Source of the DNA: Bacteroidota bacterium
GTDB taxonomy: Bacteria; Bacteroidota; Bacteroidia; B-17B0; Aurantibacillaceae
Direction: 5' to 3'
Assembly: GCA_020403265.1 (NCBI GenBank)
Contig: JADBXZ010000009.1
Coordinates: 62,001 to 126,000 of the forward strand
DNA: 64,000 nucleotides
The position numbers and the translations under genes are program-made. The stretch's first letter is position 1, and each line of letters starts with the position of its first letter. This document shows positions 9,697-16,165 of this stretch, in pieces. Under the pieces are notes generated by a model. That model was not told the origin of the DNA and did not search any database. It saw only the letters and a list, made by a program, of their open reading frames with translations.

Positions 9697-10612
9697 TTTT
9701 AAATACGGTGCCTTTGGGTTGATTAGGATAGAATGAAACTTTAAATTTAGATAACTCACAAAGATAGCTAACAATGTAAAGACCCAATCCACTTCCTTTG
9801 GTTATTCGCGTTTCTTCACTCCCTACTCGATAAAATGGTTTAAAGATATTTTCGCCATCTTCTTTTGGAATTCCGATTCCATTATCTTTTATTAATAGTT
9901 CAGTTTCATCTTTACCTTTATATAATTCCACATTTATTTTAACGTTATCATGTGAATATTTAATAGCGTTATTGATAAGGTTAGTAAGAATTGATATTAC
10001 TGCATTTTCATCTGCAATCAAATGGATATCTGACTGTATCGACAACTCAAGTTGTTTTTTGCTTATTAAATCTGAATAATATCTGTTACAACAATTTGAA
10101 ATGACTTGAGAAAAGTTAATGTTACTTTTATTTAGTTTAAATCCGCCACTGTTAAGTTGATTAGCCAATAGCACATTATCAATTAATTGATTTATGCGTT
10201 CGTTTTCAGTAAGTGCATGCTGTAGTAGTTCTTTTTGTTTTTCGGTATCAAGTTGATGTTTTAGCAGTGTTTGAAGCTGAAGTTTTGTTGCGGCAATAGG
10301 TGTCTTTAGTTCGTGGGTAATACTTAACAGGAAATTGTTTTTTTGTTGAGTTAGTTTATCTTCTCTATCATGTGCCTGTTTTATTTTGAAAATCCCATAT
10401 AATAGTAGTAAAAGGAAAACGGTTCCTTCTCCGACAATCATTAGTGTTTGCTTTAATTTTTTAGCATGCAATTCTTTAACCTGAAAAATTAAATCAGAGT
10501 CATTGGATATGGAAAGTTCTAACAGTTTTTGTTTTTGTTCGATAATACTATTATTCTGTTTTACTAATAAAATTTCCCACCAAATGAATTGCAAAATGAT
10601 ATAGCCAAACAC
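9680..10612 (-). CDS. Sensor histidine kinase, orphan, in the metH/uptake operon
   Basis: A membrane sensor kinase. A helix occupies roughly residues 1-20, a short extracytoplasmic stretch follows, then a second helix TVFLLLLLYGIF. The dimerisation domain has the phospho-acceptor in SITHELKTPIAATKL. The catalytic domain shows the N box LTNLINNAIKYS, the G1 box IKDNGIGIPKE and the G2 box KGSGLGLYIVSYL. GTG 10612 is the first canonical start but cuts the first helix short. Twelve codons upstream, at ATT 10648, the frame gives KSKRSIVILSIV, which looks like the true N-terminus. No response regulator lies nearby. Its place between metH and the uptake genes suggests regulation by cobalamin, methionine or metal status, which is inference. 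Confidence 0.85.
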   Translation of the reverse strand: MFGYIILQFIWWEILLVKQNNSIIEQKQKLLELSISNDSDLIFQVKELHAKKLKQTLMIVGEGTVFLLLLLYGIFKIKQAHDREDKLTQQKNNFLLSITHELKTPIAATKLQLQTLLKHQLDTEKQKELLQHALTENERINQLIDNVLLANQLNSGGFKLNKSNINFSQVISNCCNRYYSDLISKKQLELSIQSDIHLIADENAVISILTNLINNAIKYSHDNVKINVELYKGKDETELLIKDNGIGIPKEDGENIFKPFYRVGSEETRITKGSGLGLYIVSYLCELSKFKVSFYPNQPKGTVFKIECQN

Positions 10613-10670
10613 TATACTAAGTATAACTATGCTTCGTTTAGATTTAATCTTATTTTAGTCTATGTTCAAG

Positions 10671-13600
10671 TTAATAACCCAAAACAGGTCCTAACCATTT
10701 TTCTATTTTTTCAAAAGTTTCTCCTTTACGTTGAGCGTAATCCTCCACTTGTTCTTTTGTTATTTTTCCTATACCAAAATAATGACTTTGAGGATGAGCA
10801 AAATACAAGCCGCTAACGGCTGCTGTAGGAACCATTGCTAAACTTTCGGTTAATGTTATTCCTGTATTTTTTTCAACATCTAATAATTTCCAAATAGTTA
10901 ACTTCTCTAAATGGTCTGGTTGAGCCGGATAACCTGGAGCAGGACGAATACCATCATACGATTCGTTGATTAGTTCATCATTACTTAATTTTTCATTTTT
11001 GGCATAGCCCCATAGATCTTTTCTAACCTTTTGATGTAAATATTCGGCAAGTGCTTCTGCTAATCTATCGGCTAAAGCCTTTAACATAATGGCACTGTAA
11101 TCATCATGCGCTTTTTCAAATCGGGCAACATGCTCATCAATTCCAAAACCCGTGCTGCAGGCAAATGCACCAATGTAATCTGATTTTTCTTTTGAGTTAA
11201 TAAAATCAGCTAAAGCAACATTGTATTGTCCGGCAGGTTTTTTAGTATTCATTCTGATAGAATGAAATTTTGCTAATTCTTTTCCGGCTTCGTTATAAAC
11301 TTGTATATCGTCATCATTAACCTGATTAGCGGAAAATAAACCCACAACAGCTTTTGCTTCTAACCATTTTTCATTGATTATTTTAGTTAACATACTTTGA
11401 GCATCTGCGAATAATTTTCTTGCCTCTGCTCCGCGTTCCTTATCCTCTAATATTTTTGGGTAAGAGCCCTTCATTTCCCAACTTATAAAAAATGGTGTCC
11501 AGTCAATATAGTCAACTAATGTTTTTAAATCAATGTCATCTATAACTGTAACACCTAGTTGATTAGGTTTAACAATGTTGGTAGTGCTCCAGTCTATTTT
11601 GAATTTATTGGCTCTAGCCTCAGCTAAAGAAATAAATTTATTTTGTGCCTGTGCATTTTTATTTTGTTCACGCACACGTTCATAATCCTTTTTAACATCT
11701 TCAACAAAATTTGCTTTTAAATCTTGACTAATTAAGCTACTTACAACAGGAATTGATTTACTGGCATCATTTACATGTACAACAGGATGTGAATAATGCG
11801 GCGCAACCTTGACTGCTGTATGAACTTTACTTGTTGTAGCCCCTCCTATTAGTAGTGGTATATTAAGACCTCTACGCTCCATTTCTTTTGCTACGTCGAC
11901 CATTTCATCTAAAGACGGAGTAATCAAACCACTTAACCCAATAATATCAACTTTATTTTTAATGGCTTCATCTAAAATTTTTTCTTTAGGAATCATTACG
12001 CCTAAATCAATGATTTCATAATTATTACAAGCCATTACAACACCTACAATATTTTTACCAATATCATGCACATCGCCTTTTACTGTTGCCAATAGAACTT
12101 TGCCGGCAGAGGTGCTGGTTGTCCCTGTTTTTTCTGCTTCCAGATAGGGTTGAAGATAGGCTACCGCTTTCTTCATTACACGGGCACTTTTCACCACTTG
12201 AGGTAAAAACATTTTCCCTTGCCCAAACAAATCACCAACTACATTCATACCATCCATCAAAGGACCTTCAATAATGTGAAGTGTTTTTTCATACTGACTT
12301 CTGCATTCTTCAACATCAGCATCAATATGATCTGTAATACCTTTAACAAGAGAGTAAGTTAAACGTTCTTGAACAGTACCATTTCTCCATTCTTCATTTT
12401 TCTCTTCTTTTGCTTTACCTTTGTTTTTCAGGCTTTCTGCTTTTTCTATTAAACGTTCAGTGGCGTCATCTCTTCTGTTTAATAATACGTCCTCTATTTT
12501 TTCAAGCAAATCTTTTTCAATATCGTCGTATACAACTAATTGAGATGGATTAACAATTCCCATATCCATGCCATTTTTTACAGCATGGTATAGAAAGGCT
12601 GAATGGATGGCTTCTCTTACATGGTCATTGCCTCTGAACGAAAAACTAACATTACTTACACCACCGCTCACTTTTGCATGCGGTAAATTATCTTTAATCC
12701 ATTTGGTGGCATTAAAAAAATCCAGAGCATTCAGTTTATGCTCATCCATTCCCGTAGCCACAGGAAAGATATTAGGATCGAAAATAATATCCTGTGCCGG
12801 GAAATCAACTTTGTTAACAAGTATGTCGTATGCACGTTTACAAATATCAATTCTACGTTGCAGAGTGTCGGCTTGTCCAACTTCATCAAAGGCCATTACA
12901 ATTACCGCAGCGCCATAACTTTTCACAACATTTGCTTGCTCAATAAATTTTTCTTCACCTTCCTTTAATGAAATTGAATTAACGATTCCCTTTCCTTGTA
13001 TACACTTTAAGCCGGCCTCAATAACGTGAAACTTACTGCTATCAATCATAATCGGCACGCGTGCAATATCTGGTTCTGAAGCAATTAAATTTAAGAAGGT
13101 TGTCATTGCTTTTTCAGCATCTAGCATCCCTTCATCCATATTTACATCAATTACTTGTGCTCCTCCTTCTACTTGCTCTCTGGCAACAGCAAGCGCTTCT
13201 TCATAGCGTTCTTCAATAATCAGTTTAGCGAATTTTTTACTGCCTGTTACGTTTGTACGCTCCCCTACATTCATGAAATTACTTTCAGGACGCAGTGTTA
13301 CAGGTTCTAAACCGCTTAAATGCATTAGCTCATTTGCTTTATTTTTTTTGTGAGGTGGATAATTTTTTGCCAGTTCAGAAATGCGCTTGATATGGGCCGG
13401 AGTGGTTCCACAACATCCACCAACAATATTTAGAAAACCTGCTTTTAGAAAATCTTCAATCTGGTGACCCATTTGATGAGCGTCTTCATCATATTCTCCA
13501 AATTGATTTGGTAAACCAGCATTAGGATATGCACTTACATAAAATTCAGATTTATTTGCCAACTCTTCTAAATACGGACGCATGTCTTTAGCACCTAATG

Positions 13601-14336
13601 CACAATTTAAACCTATACTCAATAAATCAACATGTGAAACGGAATTTAAAAAAGCTTCGGTAGTCTGTCCGGATAGGGTACGCCCACTGGCATCCGTAAT
13701 TGTTCCACTAACCATTACAGGCATCTTTATGTTCCGTTCTTTGCAAACATTTTGTATGGCCATTAATGCAGCTTTGGCATTAAGTGTATCAAAAATTGTT
13801 TCGATTAACAATAAGTCAACACCACCATCAAGTAGACCTTTTACCTGCTCTGTGTATGCAGTAACCATTTCATCCCAACTTACAGCGCGATATCCTGGAT
13901 TGTTTACGTCTGGGGAAATAGAAAGTGTACGATTAGTTGGTCCCATAGCTCCGGCCACGAATCTTGGTTTAGTTGGGTCTTTGGCAGTATATTTATCAGC
14001 CGCAACTCGAGCAACTTTAGCAGCAGCAACATTTAAATCGTAAACAATGTGTTGCATGTCGTAATCTGCCATGGCAATTGTGGTGCCGCTAAAACTGTTC
14101 GTTTCAATAATATCGGCACCTGCCTCTAAATACTGTGAGTGTATTTCTTCAATCACATCTGGGCGGGTGATACATAACAAATCATTGTTACCCTTCACAT
14201 CTTTGTGGAAGTTTTTAAATTGTTCTCCTCTAAAGTCTTCTTCACTCAATTTGTATTGTTGTATTAAGGAGCCCATGGCGCCATCAATTACCAATATTCT
14301 TTTTTCAAGTTCAGTGTATATGTTAGGTTTGCTCAT
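10671..14336 (-). CDS. metH: Cobalamin-dependent methionine synthase
   Basis: It transfers a methyl group from 5-methyltetrahydrofolate to homocysteine through methylcobalamin in the cytoplasm. All four modules are present in 1221 residues. The homocysteine domain starts [14 protein letters not shown] and has its zinc cysteines in GLNCALGA and [10 protein letters not shown]. The folate domain has [15 protein letters not shown]. The B12 domain has [14 protein letters not shown], where the histidine replaces the lower cobalt ligand. The reactivation domain has [15 protein letters not shown] for AdoMet. Full length and intact motifs argue for function. No B12 riboswitch is apparent upstream; instead the 5' flank carries 12-bp repeats. 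It heads a run that continues into a kinase and B12/iron-type uptake genes. Confidence 0.97.
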
Positions 14337-14353
14337 AATATGTTTAATTAAAA

Positions 14354-14401
14354 ATGTCCGATGAAATGTCCGATGAATTCGTATTTAAAATGTCCGATGA
14401 A
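14354..14401. repeat. 12-bp repeat ATGTCCGATGAA, first cluster (3 copies)
   Basis: Two adjacent copies, one 12-bp non-matching unit (TTCGTATTTAAA), then a third exact copy, all in the same phase. The cluster lies 18 bases upstream of the metH start. Read on the plus strand each unit is M-S-D-E in frame. The plus frame from 14354 runs 33 codons and stops at 14455. Confidence 0.9.
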
Positions 14402-14454
14402 AATATCTCAAAACCCTTGAATTTATTGGTGCATCAAGGCTATCTATTAAAATA

Positions 14455-14514
14455 ATGTCCGATGAAATGTCCGATGAAATGTCCGATGAAATGTCCGATG
14501 AAATGTCCGATGAA
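14455..14514. repeat. 12-bp repeat ATGTCCGATGAA, second cluster (5 tandem copies)
   Basis: Five exact head-to-tail copies with no mismatch, ending eight bases before the AlbA_2 gene stop. Perfect identity suggests recent expansion by slippage. In the plus direction it encodes (MSDE)x5, and its first ATG overlaps the TAA of the preceding short MSDE frame (TAATG). In the minus direction it is the 3' flank of the AlbA_2 gene and a distal 5' flank of metH. Confidence 0.95.
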
Positions 14515-14521
14515 ATCTTCA

Positions 14522-15844
14522 TTATTTATTCAGTTTGTAAATGGTGAATTGTTTATTTGGCCCCTCTTTTGTTATATATCCTAATTCTACTAATTCATTC
14601 AAATCTCTGTAAGCAGTTTTTTCGTTAGTTTTATTAATTACCTGATAAGTTGAGTTATTAATATCACCATGTTCTTTTAAATAGCTTAAGGTATTAACTT
14701 GTCTGCTATTTAATTTTTGGTTCGATTCATGGCTTATTTTTTTACCAAAAATTGTAAGCTGTGTTCCCCCACTGATAGCTTCAAATAGTGGTTCTTTTCC
14801 GCTTACTGTTTTGCACAATTCAACTATGTTTAGTGTGCCTCTGCCCCAAGCTTCAATTAAACCTGCTTTGTAAAAAATTTCTGCTACTTTTGGATTATTA
14901 GGCCTGGAAGGATGTTTCTTTTTTAAATCATCAATAGAAATATCTTCATGCAAGTTTCCATCGTTCCAAAAAATTAGTTTGTTTTCATACACACTAATTA
15001 AAGTTGAATTACCGCTATAATCTCGATGAACAATAGCGTTTAATATAGCTTCACGAATGGCTGCATACGGATAGGGCCACTCTTCTTTGCGGTAAATGCC
15101 TTGATATCTTATGAGTGAAGGAAAATATTTTTTATCAAGTAGTTCAATTGTTTGTTCAGTAACATCAATTAAATTTCCTGTAATTTCATCTTGAAACAAT
15201 AAATCATCATCTGTTTTTCCAAACTTTCCAATCTTAACAGAAGCACCTAAATAGTATTTTTGAGGGTCTTTCCCAAATAACAAAATGGCGGCTCGTTTTA
15301 ATTTTTTGCCTTCAAATAAATTCAAATTACTTAAAACGGCATGTGTACCTCGCTCTTGAGAAATACTTTTTAAGCGCAAACTATTTACGGCTAATTTTTT
15401 AAAGTTCTGGATAGCCTTTGTATCAATATCTTTAATGGTTGCGTTTGGTTCAGGCATTATGTCCCAAGTTTTGCCCGATTTTTTGAGTAGAAATTGTTCT
15501 AATGCTTTGCCTTTAAGCTCTTGCTTTGTAGCACCGCTTCTATAATAGTATTTGCCATTTAAAGAAATAGGAACGGTGTATTTAGGAACTTTAATTTCGA
15601 TGTACTGGATTTTGTTTTTGTGTTTTAGATTTACATCGCAAATAACACCCAAATGTTGCACTAATTTATTAGGAATATCTTCTAATAATTTAAGTGTTTT
15701 ATTCTTTAAGCCAACGTATTTTCCACTATCATCAATACCAATATAAATTTTACCGCCATTAGCATTGCAAAAACCGGCTACCCACTTTAAACATTCGTCA
15801 TGCCAAGCTTCTTTATATTCTATATTTTGGTTCTCTTTATTCAT
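14522..15844 (-). CDS. AlbA_2 (Schlafen-like) ATP-binding transcriptional regulator, COG2865 type
   Basis: A 440-residue protein. The N-terminal AlbA_2 domain is visible as NIEYKEAW, FCNANGGKIYIGIDDSG and the YYRSGATKQEL stretch. In the centre is a HATPase_c_4-like region with YPYAAIREAILNAIVHRDYS and NNPKVAEIFYKAGLIEAWGRGT. The C-terminus holds a winged helix after LNSRQVNTLSYLKEHG. Proteins of this type are often called RecG-like or putative transcriptional regulators and are common in mobile and defence-associated regions; their biochemistry is poorly defined. The ATG lies directly after a putative terminator and ncRNA unit on the same strand. The repeat array at its 3' end and the accessory family suggest the gene was acquired. 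Confidence 0.8.
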   Translation of the reverse strand: MNKENQNIEYKEAWHDECLKWVAGFCNANGGKIYIGIDDSGKYVGLKNKTLKLLEDIPNKLVQHLGVICDVNLKHKNKIQYIEIKVPKYTVPISLNGKYYYRSGATKQELKGKALEQFLLKKSGKTWDIMPEPNATIKDIDTKAIQNFKKLAVNSLRLKSISQERGTHAVLSNLNLFEGKKLKRAAILLFGKDPQKYYLGASVKIGKFGKTDDDLLFQDEITGNLIDVTEQTIELLDKKYFPSLIRYQGIYRKEEWPYPYAAIREAILNAIVHRDYSGNSTLISVYENKLIFWNDGNLHEDISIDDLKKKHPSRPNNPKVAEIFYKAGLIEAWGRGTLNIVELCKTVSGKEPLFEAISGGTQLTIFGKKISHESNQKLNSRQVNTLSYLKEHGDINNSTYQVINKTNEKTAYRDLNELVELGYITKEGPNKQFTIYKLNK

Positions 15845-15878
15845 AAAAAAATCCCTACTGTTTTTATCAGAAGGGATT
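15845..15878 (-). terminator. Rho-independent terminator directly before the AlbA_2 start codon
   Basis: On the minus strand AATCCCT-t-CTG, a 7-base loop and CAG-t-AGGGATT form a ten-pair stem with one mismatch, followed by seven Ts running up to the ATG at 15844. This closes the upstream ncRNA-like unit, or acts as an attenuator for the downstream gene. Confidence 0.7.
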
Positions 15879-16097
15879 AGTATTTTTATTTGATTTGTAC
15901 TAAATTGTTTCTGACTTATTTATTGAAGCTAATGCTTCATCACGATTTACCACCTTCTTTTAAAAGTTAGATTTTATATTTTAGAATTAAGATTTATACT
16001 TCTTACTTCTAAAATTGGACTTCTTAAATTAAAAAGGGTTGGGAAGACTTCACCGGGCGTGTCCCTCTGTCTTTCTGAATAAGTGTTAAAGAACGAA
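15845..16097 (-). ncRNA. Putative structured non-coding RNA or long attenuator leader (about 250 nt)
   Basis: No plausible coding frame covers this 321-bp gap, but the minus strand holds a complete transcription unit. A TATATTTG box at 16108-16101 is followed by GTTCTTTAACA, which resembles the boxA of rRNA leaders. Then come GC-rich GGGACACGCCC and GAAGTCTTC motifs and a nine-pair stem (15978-15986 with 16007-16015) continued by a five-pair inner stem. A six-pair TGAAGC/GCTTCA hairpin (15924-15939) and the terminator at 15845-15878 follow. A seven-base complementarity (15914-15920 with 16078-16084) could close the whole fold. It does not look like RNase P RNA, tmRNA or SRP RNA; 6S RNA cannot be excluded. 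It may be independent or may attenuate the AlbA_2 gene. Confidence 0.5.
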
Positions 16098-16100
16098 CCA

Positions 16101-16108
16101 CAAATATA
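16101..16108 (-). promoter_or_regulatory. -7 promoter box (TATATTTG) for the putative ncRNA
   Basis: An exact TAnnTTTG match on the minus strand, followed by the boxA-like GTTCTTTAACA within the first bases of the predicted transcript. No convincing -33 TTG was found. Confidence 0.5.
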
Positions 16109-16165
16109 CGAATCATTCTTTAAATTTTAGGATTTAAAGCTTAATTTCGGTTAAAATTTTAGATA

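Follow-up and report, generated by a model that had tools for sequence, protein, structure and literature searches.

A SAM-I riboswitch leader of the metH operon in a Bacteroidota genome and its GTTCTTT element shared with tmRNA genes

Identification of the leader RNA

What is encoded by the roughly 250 nt without a coding frame that precede an AlbA_2-type gene on the minus strand of this DNA? In an earlier note on the same 64-kb stretch (hereafter the window, i.e. the whole DNA that was analyzed), a promoter box, a boxA-like sequence, a possible closing helix and a terminator that ends in a run of seven T residues had been read as a candidate novel structured non-coding RNA. All these elements were found again where the note had placed them and in one orientation, on the minus strand. 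The novelty did not survive: a search of Rfam with Infernal, which the note itself had named as a means of refutation, returned the known family RF00162. Judged from its sequence, minus-strand segment 16108-15845 is a leader containing a SAM-I (S-box) riboswitch of the metH operon.

The RF00162 match extends from 16085 to 15913 and comprises model positions 1-108 of 108. Its score (57.8 bits) exceeds the curated gathering score of 44.4 across the whole aptamer and is moderate, with a few non-standard pairs in the aptamer. The corresponding E-values were 9e-11 for the 64-kb window and 5.9e-13 for a 421-nt stretch. No other Rfam family exceeded its cut-off in the window or in the 421-nt stretch; matches to ncr1575, SpF51 and MIR396 in the latter were far under cut-off and were taken as chance. 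Compared with dinucleotide shuffles, the leader had a folding z-score of -2.7. The suggestion of the earlier note that such an arrangement would rarely arise by chance is borne out by the E-value for the window, by this z-score and by the recurrence of the whole leader layout in 40 relatives.

Based on the RF00162 alignment and the fold, helix P1 is formed by the 5′ strand ACUUAUU (16078-16084) and the 3′ strand AAUAAGU (15914-15920). Helix P3 carries an expansion of about 70 nt (15957-16031), which the alignment to RF00162 shows as 68+ inserted nt. This expansion is typical of the metH-type leader of the family, whose fetched RF00162 matches measure about 160-180 nt, compared with 108 model positions.

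SAM-I riboswitches acting by transcription attenuation are well established. The leader shares with known members of RF00162 (i) the full-length aptamer; (ii) the mutual exclusivity of P1 and an antiterminator; (iii) the terminator; and (iv) a target in methionine biosynthesis. It differs from them in the P3 expansion, in a swap of G-C to C-G in P3 (CCAACC/GGUGG, not GCAACC/GGUGC), in a GTTCTTT element at the 5′ end and, in the window genome, in the AlbA_2 gene that separates the terminator from metH. The SAM-I class was already known from Bacteroidetes (PMC2258182).

Promoter and transcript start

A -7 promoter box, TATATTTG, matches the Bacteroidota consensus TAnnTTTG exactly and is located at 16101-16108 on the minus strand. 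It is the nearest exact minus-strand match upstream of both the AlbA_2 gene and metH. A scan for the exact consensus yielded no further minus-strand TAnnTTTG from 9767 to 16100, and hence no second exact consensus -7 box is available close to either gene. Since the published placement of this box is -12 to -5 (PMC9723704), the RNA is expected to start near 16096. Scans with sigma-70 and terminator consensus sequences of the E. coli type gave numbers near the shuffled expectation.

Terminator, antiterminator and proposed switching

An intrinsic terminator (AAUCCC..CUG / CAG..GGGAUU followed by T7; 15845-15878, minus strand) was evident from sequence and fold and is conserved in relatives. The terminator and its T run thus agree with the initial description, whereas the stem consists of AAUCCC/GGGAUU plus an inner CUG/CAG and not of ten uninterrupted pairs. 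As had been pointed out, the unit ends exactly at the start of the AlbA_2 gene: the T run ends at 15845 and directly abuts the ATG at 15844.

The sequence also contains a predicted antiterminator. Its 5′ half (GUCAGAA ... UUAGUA, 15898-15915) overlaps P1, and its 3′ half (UACUAA ... UUCUGAU, 15866-15882) overlaps the 5′ arm of the terminator; the duplex of the two halves has a predicted energy of -11.0 kcal/mol. Across relatives, duplexes of a leader's own halves averaged -11.7 kcal/mol, compared with -9.1 +/- 0.35 kcal/mol for re-paired halves, and the observed mean was reached in 0 of 10,000 permutations, a procedure that ignores species relatedness. One row of this test (L039) was mis-registered, which weakens the test and does not help it. 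The pairing is kept with differing sequences, i.e. CGG/CCG versus CAG/CUG as well as the L041-like, L060 and L070-like types, and the predicted antiterminator is backed by compensatory change. As in the transcriptional members of SAM-I, P1 and the antiterminator exclude each other, and the antiterminator competes with the terminator. For the window RNA, the fold with P1 and terminator and the fold with the antiterminator had equal predicted energies (-45.5 kcal/mol each) in a model that ignores tertiary contacts of the aptamer, as expected for a poised switch.

The layout is that of an OFF switch, in which stabilization of P1 by SAM would free the terminator; both SAM binding and the direction of the response are taken from family membership. 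RNA polymerase would start near 16096. At low SAM, the 3′ P1 strand and the adjoining downstream nucleotides would base-pair with the terminator's 5′ arm, and transcription would run through the AlbA_2 gene into metH, such that methionine is made; this read-through into metH is what we infer. At high SAM, the aptamer would bind its ligand and hold P1 (16084-16078/15920-15914), the terminator (15878-15845) would form, and the transcript would end before the ATG.

Linkage to metH in relatives

The conserved target is metH (10671-14336, minus strand), encoding a B12-dependent methionine synthase of 1221 aa with the Pfam domains Met_synt_B12, S-methyl_trans, Pterin_bind and B12-binding. SAM-I riboswitches were detected in 77 of 87 genomes of the family, and the window genome has two. 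The form with the long P3 was located upstream of metH in all 40 relatives fetched and, including the window, at 41 of 41 loci, i.e. in the sulfur/methionine gene context that is characteristic of SAM-I. In the alignment of these relatives, the aptamer core and the terminator are nearly invariant. With these data, the leader is almost certainly a SAM-I riboswitch attenuating transcription of the metH operon, a judgment that leaves aside the role of the GTTCTTT element.

At some loci (L037, L059, L060 and others), an extra gene separates the SAM switch from metH. In the three cases tested, it encoded a methyltransferase (Pfam Methyltransf_11).

Occurrence of the GTTCTTT element

The element GTTCTTT (16088-16094, minus strand) is part of the boxA-like stretch GTTCTTTAACA (16084-16094). 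With the box at -12 to -5 (PMC9723704), it begins at about +2/+3 of the transcript. In 38 of the 40 metH leaders scored, from which the truncated L061 was left out, a gap of 5-6 nt separates the -7 box from the element; for the remaining two, the longer gaps obtained (23 and 25) may have been produced by the search pattern itself. The same heptamer was present upstream of 22 of 30 tmRNA genes, including 19 of 19 in the genus of the window. At these same-genus loci (among L085-L114), it follows the -7 box by 3-7 nt and lies upstream of the mature tmRNA. Among SAM leaders sampled across the class, 21 of 30 contained GTTCTT, and the looser pattern GTTC[TA]T was found in almost every class-wide leader that had a MetH match (exceptions: L217, L232 and L235).

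Other RNA genes hardly carried the element: it was detected in 0 of 30 RNase P leaders, 0 of 25 TPP leaders, 1 of 30 cobalamin leaders and 1 of 29 SRP leaders. On these counts, we rejected GTTCTTT as a general mark of structured-RNA promoters. Neither was the combination of an exact -7 box with GTTCTTT enriched in the window genome (12 occurrences versus 10 for a reversed control); within the 12 places, an Rfam RNA followed only at tmRNA and at the metH leader. The 16S leaders in the window's family contain GTTCATTGA and not GTTCTTT, and the rRNA leaders of three other families of the class have GTTCTTTGAA shortly before 16S. The sharing of GTTCTTT between metH leaders and tmRNA genes is the part of this locus that looks new, and the boxA-like remark in the earlier note proved a good lead.

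boxA or promoter element

boxA is an RNA element bound by NusB-S10 in rRNA, suhB and phage leaders. GTTCTTTAACA resembles the boxA core of E. coli rRNA and, like boxA, is found where an untranslated, structured transcript begins. Conservation of the core G(C/T)TCTTT extends over the metH leaders of this family and all 19 same-genus tmRNA leaders, and a further likeness is that other families of the class carry GTTCTTTGAA in their rRNA leaders. In contrast to known boxA, GTTCTTT is among the first nucleotides of the transcript, and rRNA of its own family has GTTCATTGA. A published survey of boxA covers gamma-proteobacteria, and the words riboswitch and tmRNA are absent from its text (PMC5725501). 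In a literature search of titles and abstracts, no entry was found that links boxA with a riboswitch, tmRNA or Bacteroidetes.

As a separate conserved element, the 5′ GUUCUUU may recruit an elongation/RNA-folding complex of the NusB-S10 (boxA) type, and binding of NusB-S10 to it is plausible. More broadly, the metH SAM-I leader and the tmRNA precursor of Bacteroidia might share a 5′-terminal GUUCUUU boxA that loads a NusB-S10 elongation/chaperone complex, such that Nus factors would assist the folding or protection not of rRNA alone but also of a metabolite riboswitch and of tmRNA. We hold this proposal tentatively, at somewhat less than an even chance.

The main alternative is that GTTCTTT acts as DNA, as a promoter element at the start site or in the initially transcribed region, and is not an RNA boxA bound by NusB-S10; we give this explanation a chance just short of even. 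It would account for the near-fixed distance to the -7 box in metH leaders and tmRNA genes, for a spacing that puts the element at about -1 to +4 (box position from PMC9723704), and for its replacement by GTTCATTGA in the 16S leaders of the family. A promoter element fits less well with its rarity at promoters, where it barely exceeded the reversed control and preceded an Rfam RNA only at tmRNA and metH. In some leaders of other families, moreover, hairpin-like extra sequence separates the -7 box from the element (L238) or the element from the aptamer (L218 and L243), and GTTCTTTGAA shortly before 16S occupies the place of a boxA. Whether GTTCTTT is a boxA rather than part of the promoter start is, in our estimate, about evenly balanced.

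The AlbA_2 gene and its repeats

In the window genome, the gene that directly follows the terminator (14522-15844, minus strand) encodes a protein of 440 aa with SLFN_AlbA_2 (PF04326, 1.6e-14) and HATPase_c_4 (PF13749, 2.1e-14) domains. We take it to belong to the predicted regulators of the COG2865 type, with which it shares the domain order AlbA_2 then HATPase_c_4; it differs from them in its position behind a SAM riboswitch and in an array of 12-nt repeats after the gene. The array (TTTCATCGGACA; seven exact copies and one with one mismatch; 14355-14515, minus strand) lies between the AlbA_2 gene and metH. A role of the AlbA_2 protein as a defense system was rejected, as PADLOC matches span only parts of Argonaute-related models.

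Among the 41 loci, the AlbA_2/HATPase_c_4 gene occupies the junction of terminator and metH only in the window and in one relative (genome G010, locus L038), where the 12-nt repeat array is likewise present. Since these two genomes belong to separate supported clades of the metH tree, the cassette either arrived twice at the same junction, moved by transfer or underwent many losses. Several other AlbA_2 homologues bear different short repeats, which directly follow the gene in L248-L250 and are located within it in L253-L255, and the repeats therefore seem to be part of the cassette and not of metH.

The abutting ATG and the location of the repeats just upstream of metH, in the window as in G010, could mean that the switch now acts chiefly on the AlbA_2 gene, whose product would control metH through the repeats. 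We consider this unlikely: binding of the repeats by the AlbA_2 protein is a guess, the leader is kept at other loci without the gene, and repeats of other kinds accompany several homologues elsewhere. The idea of an attenuator for an accessory regulator keeps its first half, an attenuator in front of AlbA_2, and loses its second, as this gene is present in only 1 of 40 relatives and metH follows in the others.

A free-standing small RNA ending at the terminator, e.g. the divergent 6S RNA considered before, is very improbable: although the roughly 250 nt from promoter to terminator contain no coding frame and the terminated riboswitch RNA may well build up as a short transcript, the RF00162 match, the conserved metH linkage and the lack of any other Rfam family (6S included) above its cut-off in the window or the 421-nt stretch argue against it. 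A search of 31 genomes for 6S-Flavo gave no match, in control genomes either, and was thus uninformative.

SAM leaders of the metX type

The second SAM riboswitch of the genome (L001, G000:C89:112490-112619) belongs to another SAM-I type, which is followed by metX where the gene was identified. GTTCTTT was absent from these metX-type leaders. In 18 of 19 of them (L001 and loci among L004-L032), the aptamer is followed by a short frame of 33-49 aa with a Cys/Met-rich end, e.g. MMACCMCCCCCMC; the single exception, L017, reads N at this frame, and a second scan with a stricter pattern caught slightly fewer Cys/Met-rich frames. From its sequence, the frame is a possible candidate for a polycysteine attenuator in tandem with the SAM switch.

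Implications

The identity of the riboswitch settles what had been noticed at this locus. The riboswitch itself is ordinary, a further SAM-I representative of a known class with one conserved accessory element. The pairing of a SAM switch with a conserved polycysteine frame behind it, as in the metX leaders, suggests that methionine synthesis is controlled by two signals. The presence of GTTCTTT at metH-type SAM leaders and tmRNA, with next to no occurrence at the remaining RNA genes that were tested, provides a clean and testable lead. If GTTCTTT is indeed a boxA, both riboswitch folding and tmRNA production would be connected with the Nus complex, and this in a phylum whose transcription signals are unusual.
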